In this document: positions 3,729 through 5,424 of the stretch, in pieces
How the letters are laid out: every line of letters begins with the position of its first letter
Numbering within the stretch: position 1 is the stretch's first letter
Origin: Rhizobium anhuiense
GTDB lineage: Bacteria; Pseudomonadota; Alphaproteobacteria; Rhizobiales; Rhizobiaceae
Assembly (NCBI RefSeq): GCF_003985145.1
Contig: NZ_ML133521.1
Coordinates: forward strand, 1,116,001 to 1,180,000
Direction of reading: 5' to 3'
DNA: 64,000 bases
Translations under genes and position numbers: made by a program
Notes under the pieces: generated by a model
Seen by the model: the letters and a program-made list of their open reading frames with translations, nothing else
Database searches by the model: none
What the model was told of the DNA's origin: nothing

Positions 3729-4961
3729 GTGGACATGACGCGCATCCGAGAACGCATGGTGGAGCACCACGTAACCGGTCGTGGTATTCGCGATCAAAAC
3801 GTCACCAGGGCAATGCTCATGGTGCCGCGCGAAAAATTCGTCGCTCCGGGCTCCGAGGAGTTCGCCTATGAGGATGCGCCGCTGTCGATTGGCGAAGGCC
3901 AGACAATTTCGCAGCCGTTCATCGTGGCTCTGATGCTCGAAAAGGCCGATCTGGATGCCGGCGACAAAGTGCTCGAGGTCGGAACGGGCTCCGGCTATGC
4001 TTCAGCCCTGATGAGCCGGATAGCAGGCCACGTCTATTCCATCGAGCGCCATGAAAGACTGGCGCTTCAGGCCAAGGAACGCTTCGAGAAGCTGGGATAC
4101 CGCAACATTGACGTTCGCGTCGGCGACGGCAGCAAAGGCTGGGCGGAAGCCGCTCCATTCGATGCCATTATCGTTTCTGCGAGCGCACCCGAGGTGCCAA
4201 GCGCATTGAAAGAGCAGTTGGTCCTCGGAGGACGGCTCATCGTCCCGGTCGGCCGCGGTGAAGCGCAACGCCTGAAACGCCTCACGCGTACCGGAGCCGC
4301 CGCATTCGAGGAAGACGATCTCGGCGGGGTGCTCTTCGTTCCCCTGATTGGCGAAGACGCCTGGACTGCTACACACCCAATGTACACGGCGACGGCCCCG
4401 TCATCGCCGGAAACTTTTGCGTCCGAGCCAAACTCTCCGCAAGACGCAAAGGCAGGAGGCATGGGAAAGATCCTCCCATTGCCCGCATTACCGGAAGGTG
4501 TTCTCGATCATAGCGAATTTCAGCGACGGTTCTGGGCTATTCAACGTATTTCCTGGATCGTGTTCACGCTTCTTCTGGTTACCTGCTTGCTGGGTTTGCT
4601 GGGACGAGGTGGTCCGCTTTCACGGCAAACACTTCTGTTGCCGGACGGCTCCGTGGACTTTCCGGTCATCTCCCGATGGAATGCTCCGGAGTATATGACC
4701 GTGAACTTCACGCCGTCATCCGACGACAGGATCTTCACGATCGATGCGGCCTTTCTTCAAACCTTTTCGATTGAGGGCGTCGATCCGCCTCAAAAGGCGA
4801 CCTTCGCGCGCGCGGGCCGAATAGGCTACGTGTTCCCCGCTGACCCGGCAGGACCGACGCAAATCGTGTTCCGTCTGCAAACGCAACTCCCCGGCCCTCT
4901 TCGCGCCACCATTGGCATGGGCGGGGAGATCCGCAGCCAATCCACTTTCATCTTTCCATGA
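3729..4961 (+). CDS. Protein-L-isoaspartate O-methyltransferase fused to a C-terminal membrane module
   Basis: The first 220 or so of 410 residues are a complete PCMT: the GQTISQP signature at 57-63 and the SAM-binding motif VLEVGTGSGY at 81-90, followed by the acidic ribose-binding residue in SIERHE. It would methylate isoaspartyl residues in damaged proteins. A linker rich in Pro, Ser and Asp (about 215-244) leads to a second module of 166 residues starting at Met245. That module has one membrane span at about 274-292 (ISWIVFTLLLVTCLLGLLG) and a beta-rich tail. Ordinary PCMT ends near residue 215, so this is a fusion. GTG 3729 follows GGAG at 3718-3721 by 7 bases; ATG 3735 is the alternative. 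DUF421 follows after 10 bases. Confidence 0.85.
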   Translation: MDMTRIRERMVEHHVTGRGIRDQNVTRAMLMVPREKFVAPGSEEFAYEDAPLSIGEGQTISQPFIVALMLEKADLDAGDKVLEVGTGSGYASALMSRIAGHVYSIERHERLALQAKERFEKLGYRNIDVRVGDGSKGWAEAAPFDAIIVSASAPEVPSALKEQLVLGGRLIVPVGRGEAQRLKRLTRTGAAAFEEDDLGGVLFVPLIGEDAWTATHPMYTATAPSSPETFASEPNSPQDAKAGGMGKILPLPALPEGVLDHSEFQRRFWAIQRISWIVFTLLLVTCLLGLLGRGGPLSRQTLLLPDGSVDFPVISRWNAPEYMTVNFTPSSDDRIFTIDAAFLQTFSIEGVDPPQKATFARAGRIGYVFPADPAGPTQIVFRLQTQLPGPLRATIGMGGEIRSQSTFIFP

Positions 4962-4971
4962 GGACGGCACG

Positions 4972-5424
4972 GTGGATGCGGTATTACGCGGACTGGCAAT
5001 CTATTTCACCCTGCTCGTGATCATCCGCCTGTCGGGAAGACGGACATTGGCGCAGATGACGCCGTTCGATCTGGTCATCGTGCTGGTGATCTCGGAAACC
5101 ACGCAGCAGGCGATGCTCGGCGATGACTTCTCGATCACCAACGCCGTCATCTTGATCTTGACGCTGTTTACGACCGACATCGGCCTGTCCTACGTCAAGA
5201 GGTGGTGGCCTCGCGCAGCTCATATCATCGATGGCGTTCCGACCGTTCTGGTGACGGATGGCGTCTACGACGAACGCGCGCTCAAAGGAGCCCGGCTGCA
5301 GAAGGAAGATGTCATGCAGGCAGCGCGAAGCCAGGAAGGTATCGAGAGCGTGACGGAGATAAAATTTGCCATCCTCGAAGTGAGCGGCAACATCAGCATC
5401 ATCAAGAAGCAGAAATCCGGCTGA
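4972..5424 (+). CDS. DUF421 (YetF-like) membrane protein
   Basis: This 150-residue protein has the DUF421 layout. The first hydrophobic segment is LAIYFTLLVIIRLSG and carries the conserved RLSGRRTLAQMTPFDLV motif. Two more spans follow, then a small soluble C-terminal domain (VLVTDGVYDERAL onward, ending in the VSGNISIIKK strand). Start: the GTG at 4972 lies about 8 bases after an AGGAC ribosome-binding site and immediately precedes the first membrane span. The gene is 10 bases downstream of the methyltransferase fusion and almost certainly co-transcribed. DUF421 proteins have no settled biochemical role; YetF-like members are linked to envelope and sporulation phenotypes. Confidence 0.85.
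   Translation: MDAVLRGLAIYFTLLVIIRLSGRRTLAQMTPFDLVIVLVISETTQQAMLGDDFSITNAVILILTLFTTDIGLSYVKRWWPRAAHIIDGVPTVLVTDGVYDERALKGARLQKEDVMQAARSQEGIESVTEIKFAILEVSGNISIIKKQKSG

Follow-up and report, generated by a model that had tools for sequence, protein, structure and literature searches.

What is a protein isoaspartate methyltransferase doing in one reading frame with a membrane-anchored module, directly upstream of a DUF421 gene, and how did it get there? The question is raised by a 64,000-nucleotide stretch of the Rhizobium anhuiense genome (contig NZ_ML133521.1), called the window below. PCMT, Ere and DUF421, the three families met in the answer, are known; the module, called MOD here, has no name. 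We consider it probable that a two-domain PCMT-Ere protein and a separate MOD-yetF gene pair were turned by a single deletion into a membrane-tethered PCMT-MOD protein, in which MOD stays the partner of YetF and PCMT is carried along as a passenger.

The fused reading frame

The frame (3729-4961; all features given here lie on the forward strand) is open over 410 codons for 410 amino acids. It starts with GTG at 3729, and a second possible in-frame start, ATG, lies at 3735. It opens with a PIMT-like methyltransferase domain (PCMT, residues 1-212, 3729-4364), which a linker connects to a single membrane span and a module predicted to be a beta-sandwich. The first part is matched above cut-off by PF01135 of Pfam (residues 8-209; 211.4 bits against 20.3) and by NF001453, the NCBIfam equivalog for PIMT (247.2 bits against 188). 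Residues 213-245 make a low-complexity linker rich in P, S and A, 82% of which is P, S, T, A, G, Q, N, E or D. MOD runs from Met245 to Pro410 (166 amino acids, 4461-4958). Its single membrane span, placed at residues 274-292 (4548-4604), is given by helix 17-48 of the MOD model and by hydropathy, with hydrophobic windows confined to residues 268-297 of the fusion; a C-terminal sandwich, possibly Ig-like or cohesin-like, is predicted by the AlphaFold2 model for residues 299-407 (4623-4949). An earlier note on this DNA had PCMT ending near residue 215 and passing through a low-complexity linker into a beta-rich module of 166 residues with one span, and the Pfam match, the hydropathy and the model bear this description out.

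Might two genes have been joined by an error of sequencing or assembly? Some relatives do carry frameshifts of 1-2 nt within the frame, in a few cases at the junction, which is the pattern that the earlier note named as pointing to such an error. Junction frameshifts were seen in a minority (L092, L101, L164, L159 and L160), and the frame is intact in 25 loci including the window, in genomes as well as plasmid records, at 403-410 amino acids and with like make-up. For the group as a whole the number of separate records refutes the artefact, to which we give practically no chance. Since such frames recur in 25 loci, the fusion is confirmed as real, neither a chance frame nor a sequencing error. 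Plasmid records matching the whole stretch number 54; PCMT is annotated under the match in 45, a PCMT annotation is absent there in 8, and 1 record is unannotated. Among relatives the locus is carried by Rhizobium leguminosarum, R. sophorae, R. laguerreae, R. beringeri and others, and the R. leguminosarum group are root-nodule bacteria of clover and pea. The window copy begins with GTG (VDMT) and the other 24 rows of the intact-frame set with ATG; L165, nearest to it on the PCMT tree, also has V.

Is this the housekeeping methyltransferase of the genome? A search of the genome (7.12 Mb, 44 contigs) finds the window PCMT away from surE, beside which the canonical gene stands. Because the only surE match (C11:127384-127932) adjoins another PCMT match (C11:128202-128780) on a different contig, the window PCMT is an extra copy and not the surE-linked pcm. 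It is like canonical PIMT (Pcm) in scoring above the equivalog cut-off; the fusion differs from it in location and in adding a linker, a membrane span and a beta domain.

MOD and its DUF421 neighbour

What kind of protein is MOD? Alone it has no Pfam or NCBIfam match at E<=1; 15 family members scanned against Pfam reach at best E 0.17, and the best match to PDB sequences is a ribosomal protein at E 0.11. The AlphaFold2 model (mean pLDDT 74.9) has one long helix and ten strands. Its best structural matches (Z 8.6) are tied among unrelated Ig-like domains, and Foldseek gives query TM-scores up to 0.42 among the matches listed; a function was sought from these fold searches and none was read, the matches being only generic Ig-like. 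The arginines before the span (R266, R267, R273) outnumber those after it (R293, R299), a charge pattern by which MOD would be a subunit of the inner membrane whose N-terminus faces inward, and the modelled sandwich would lie outside the inner membrane. A prediction for the whole fusion was set aside, its mean pLDDT of 38.1 being too low.

The short DUF421/YetF membrane protein gene (4972-5424, GTG start, 150 amino acids, its start set as annotated in L167) begins 10 nt past the fusion stop. In 148 genomes of the genus, 54 have a MOD match, fragments counted, and there are 53 DUF421 matches, 44 of them covering residues 6-151 or more. MOD lies directly upstream on the same strand in all 44 of these full-length cases, with match ends -2 to 15 nt apart; one of the 44 neighbours is frameshifted (G036) and the match of another begins at residue 49 (G133). 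The other nine DUF421 matches are partial and were left out of this count; partial ones without an adjoining MOD match occur in G089, G130 (two), G114 and as the second one of G058. By architecture the 44 divide into 17 intact fusions, 1 frameshifted fusion, 3 in which MOD comes after PCMT-Ere, and 23 with MOD and no PCMT within the upstream flank of about 1.1-1.6 kb. MOD is rare beyond the genus (2 genomes of 297, 3 of 385 and 13 of 297 in three searched sets), and DUF421 follows at most about 220 nt downstream in 17 of 18 loci, the sole exception, L190, being a partial MOD. The search for the module as a stand-alone gene beside DUF421, which the earlier note had proposed, is thus strongly positive. 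In alphaproteobacteria the unnamed MOD is a near-obligate companion of a short DUF421/YetF gene, and its tie to DUF421 is older than the fusion. In R. leguminosarum WSM1325 and one Sinorhizobium meliloti pSymB the pair is annotated as a hypothetical protein and YetF/DUF421.

Two side observations belong here. WSM1325 (G033) has an eroded fusion locus (L092) together with a separate MOD-YetF pair (L026/L192) near alkB and a sigma factor gene. Long frames around MOD at L185, L187 and L189 were considered as further fusions and rejected: a search with PCMT, MOD, Ere and DUF421 found no PCMT or Ere in them, nothing was recognised on reading, and their extra parts are taken as chance GC-rich frames.

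The DUF421 protein of the window scores 50 bits with PF04239 (cut-off 23.6) and 29.9 bits with PF20730, YetF_N (cut-off 26.5). The YetF C-terminal region is described as two subdomains (PMC10126465), and here the match to the C-terminal domain takes in positions 3-71 of 129, the first half only, with no Pfam match to the second subdomain. The window protein is thereby like Bacillus subtilis YetF (PDB 3c6f; phmmer E 0.0026) in YetF_N and the first C-terminal half. It differs from the YetF/DUF421 family in its length of 150 amino acids, in lacking the second half and in having MOD as a constant neighbour.

Probable origin of the fusion from PCMT-Ere

Where did the methyltransferase come from? 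We examined 61 PCMT loci in the genus, namely the window and 60 relatives, with eight of the 69 PCMT rows at E<=1e-70 (frames of 225-241 amino acids) and all rows at E>=1e-45 left out. In 27 of them PCMT is joined to an erythromycin-esterase-like domain (Ere) with no MOD nearby, 3 have PCMT-Ere together with MOD-DUF421, 18 are intact fusions and 13 are eroded. The three in the second class, all Rhizobium genomes (L043/L103 of Rhizobium sp. J15, L050/L114 of R634, and L122), keep what looks like the state before the fusion: a PCMT-Ere frame of 659-660 residues, separated by a 79-87 nt spacer from MOD, with DUF421 next. The Ere domain is identified by PF05139 (413 bits in L043), a profile with no match in the fusion or anywhere else in this genome. 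Since PCMT-Ere is the commonest form in the genus and a full-length match is found in 19 of 249 genomes of the wider order, PCMT-Ere is the old form and the fusion young.

The junction is consistent with this order of events. The PCMT of the fusion shares 83-86% identity with its counterpart in the three PCMT-Ere/MOD genomes, and the start of the linker is alike; the fusion differs from these two-domain proteins of Hyphomicrobiales (PF01135 plus PF05139) in that Ere is deleted and the membrane module is joined on. Aligned with L103, L114 and L122, the first part of the linker (residues 213 to about 226, 4365-4406) corresponds to the start of the old inter-domain linker of PCMT-Ere. The second part (about residues 227-244, 4407-4460), which aligns with the spacers of the same three loci, from about 4409 on, would be the former leader of MOD, presumably untranslated then and coding now. 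About 19 codons of the fusion thus read through what in the PCMT-Ere/MOD strains is spacer. The L103 spacer has a TAG in the MOD frame, where fused rows have CAG, AAG, GAG or GAA. Because the left flank aligns with the PCMT-Ere linker and the right flank with the MOD leader, we infer that the fused frame lacks about 1.3 kb, comprising Ere with its stop codon and a piece of the spacer, with a putative scar at 4404-4410.

The separate MOD genes of L103 and L114 start at the position of Met245. A separate gene upstream of DUF421 joined to pcm, as the earlier note claimed, is therefore what we find, with Met245 and its GGAGG-like leader marking the old start. The join stands; the origin by loss of an erythromycin-esterase-like partner of PCMT had been missed. 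The following path is proposed. The ancestor would have had a PCMT-Ere protein encoded upstream of the separate two-gene unit MOD-yetF. In the ancestor of the R. leguminosarum group one deletion would have removed the 1.3 kb, and PCMT with a stub of its linker would then have been read in frame through the old leader into MOD.

Apart from this path, Ere has been lost independently in L120 and L123, which lie outside the fusion clade among the PCMT-Ere rows and have PCMT frames of 230 and 228 amino acids; L123 keeps an Ere remnant. At G220:C13:5454-7465, Ere and PCMT are two adjacent matches in separate frames, possibly a split PCMT-Ere.

Did the fusion arise once? A PCMT tree of 74 rows groups all 42 fusion rows, intact or eroded, on a single branch with support 94/96. 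With five distant rows removed the support is 95/96, and the passage from PCMT-Ere to fusion takes one change of state. In the MOD tree and the MOD+DUF421 tree the three PCMT-Ere/MOD rows fall among the fused ones; L105 was left out of the second tree, and of one dN/dS comparison below, because its DUF421 match covers residues 1-43 only. Forcing a single fused clade costs 7.7 log units with MOD and 6.7 with MOD+DUF421 and is not rejected (p-AU 0.131 and 0.126), making the conflict with the PCMT tree a mild one. The aligned junction is also present in L116, L128 and L133, early branches of the MOD trees, which fits a single origin.

One chain or two

Is MOD still made separately from its old start? 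The region has the form AGGAGG, C and ATG (4454-4463). The earlier note's GGAGG-like sequence just ahead of Met245 is indeed present as AGGAGG at 4454-4459, and the ATG is at 4461. Internal initiation there could give a separate MOD, in addition to the long chain or as the main product, and PCMT and MOD would then act apart, as in the ancestor. This second reading can appeal to the ATG and AGGAGG retained in the window, to the ATG kept in 20 of the 25 intact-frame rows, and to the MOD of L103 and L114 starting at that very codon. Against it, the gap between AGGAGG and ATG in the window is only 1 nt, close for an efficient ribosome site, the usual spacing being 5-9 nt. Met245 is absent from 5 of the 25 rows, being replaced by ATC in the near-copies L087, L170 and L174, by GGG in L168 and by GCG in L173; L172 has lost the leader codons by an in-frame deletion, and several other leaders are degenerate. 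L087 (G030) lies on a contig of R. leguminosarum USDA 2370, whose MOD begins with Ile in L037 too.

Because those five rows do without Met245, initiation at this codon would not be required in general, and Met245 itself appears to be a relic start, the ancestral start region of stand-alone MOD. We consider separate products quite improbable. The product is most likely one chain of 410 residues anchored by the MOD helix, in line also with the purifying selection on both domains, and PCMT is likely tethered to the membrane: it would sit in the cytoplasm, joined flexibly to a single helix that crosses the inner membrane with its N-terminal side inside, and the beta-sandwich would lie outside.

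Selection and erosion

Which parts of the fusion are held by selection? Pairwise dN/dS over 23 fused rows (L170 and L174 left out as near-copies of L087) is 0.21 for PCMT, 0.14 for residues 213-225, 0.88 for residues 226-244 and 0.21 for MOD; DUF421 has 0.06 over 22 rows, without L105. PCMT and MOD are thus under purifying selection, and the part of the linker derived from the leader drifts almost neutrally. In neutral simulations from five starting linkers, this linker was free of stops in all tips in 28, 22, 31, 16 and 3 of 300 runs, for rows that had been chosen beforehand for an open frame, a choice that biases the comparison, and the keeping of the frame is only modestly beyond chance. 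For MOD, dN/dS is 0.197 in fused rows against 0.123 in the three PCMT-Ere/MOD rows and, when it stands alone, 0.101 (5 rows, synonymous sites near saturation), 0.247 (2 rows) and 0.275 (6 rows including those 2). Since the fused value lies at 0.20 against 0.12, 0.10, 0.25 and 0.28, the fusion would have brought MOD neither clear relaxation nor clear tightening.

Is the fusion kept once it is made? The fusion clade has 29 genome rows: the fusion is intact in 18, MOD is broken or lost in the other 11, and there are at least six changes of state. Only genome rows enter this count, since the plasmid rows are biased to lesions: 13 of the 54 whole-stretch records were read, five of them chosen for absent PCMT annotation, together with three partial records. 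The PCMT frame is open in all 11 eroded rows, at 235-359 residues. L094 has a frameshift in MOD and a whole DUF421; in the other ten, deletions have removed MOD partly or almost wholly and DUF421 partly or wholly. Two genome rows (L092, L101) and L164 lack 1 nt immediately ahead of ATG245, and each has further lost MOD in part or almost entirely and DUF421 almost entirely; the loss of 1 nt immediately past Met245 shifts the frame in L159 and L160, plasmid rows taken for their absent PCMT annotation. Further plasmid rows so chosen have two frameshifts in MOD (L162), one in PCMT (L161), or lesions in PCMT and DUF421 (L163). In L105 MOD is intact and the DUF421 match ends at residue 43.

With 11 of 29 genome rows lacking a whole MOD, the fusion is dispensable. 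As a rule MOD and DUF421 disappear as a pair and PCMT remains, a pattern suggesting that MOD is tied to DUF421 rather than to PCMT. The functional link between protein repair and DUF421 that the earlier note read from the fusion finds no support in these losses, ten of the 11 involving DUF421, or in a MOD-DUF421 tie that predates the fusion.

The end of PCMT is also a repeated point of chimera formation. In the eroded loci L104, L126 and L165, PCMT is in frame with the C-terminal half of the DUF421 protein (359, 312 and 320 amino acids), with part of MOD kept between in L104; the joins correspond to window positions 4395-5183. In L119 the PCMT-MOD frame breaks off past the membrane span and continues, in frame, with the apparent downstream gene of L043/L050, ending with the tail DDFNKQYHSDKEAAHEDAVDLLKR and a stop. 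We take that gene to be DUF4142.

Then why was the fusion made at all? One explanation is adaptive, that it was selected because it lands isoaspartate repair at a membrane containing YetF. Purifying selection on both PCMT and MOD and the 18 intact rows agree with this, as do reports that YetF-type proteins of Bacillus spores alter the properties of the inner membrane and increase resistance to wet heat (PMC10126465; PMC12548441). Against it stand the repeated cases in which MOD and DUF421 were lost and PCMT was not, and a fused MOD that by dN/dS is not clearly better conserved than the unfused forms. We regard selection for such a tether as rather unlikely. The fuller picture, in which loss of the antibiotic-esterase-like Ere and conversion of leader to linker would have made PCMT a membrane-tethered subunit of a MOD-YetF complex, repairing aged membrane proteins locally in root-nodule bacteria, seems likewise rather unlikely.

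Meaning of the finding

The passenger model, a single deletion followed by tethering, remains the one we prefer. On this model MOD would continue as the dedicated partner of the adjoining short YetF-like protein, physical contact between the two being presumed, and PCMT would be a passenger tethered at the membrane; if active, it would work next to the membrane, and it may still repair isoaspartate there. The surE-linked pcm would keep the housekeeping role. In the open-licence literature, covered mostly at the level of listings, we found no description of the PCMT-MOD architecture, of the pairing of MOD with a short YetF or of the path from PCMT-Ere, and a paper dealing with erythromycin esterase and isoaspartate does not, in the part available, describe the two enzymes as fused.

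The locus offers a natural case in which a new multidomain protein would have come from one deletion, with the state before it (PCMT-Ere, MOD, DUF421) persisting in close relatives. A leader seems to have become coding and to serve as a linker, drifting almost neutrally where the domains on either side are constrained, and a fossil start codon is decaying in it. For the DUF421/YetF family, studied in Bacillus spores in the papers covered, MOD gives a handle. And if the tether works, isoaspartate repair would be placed at the membrane.
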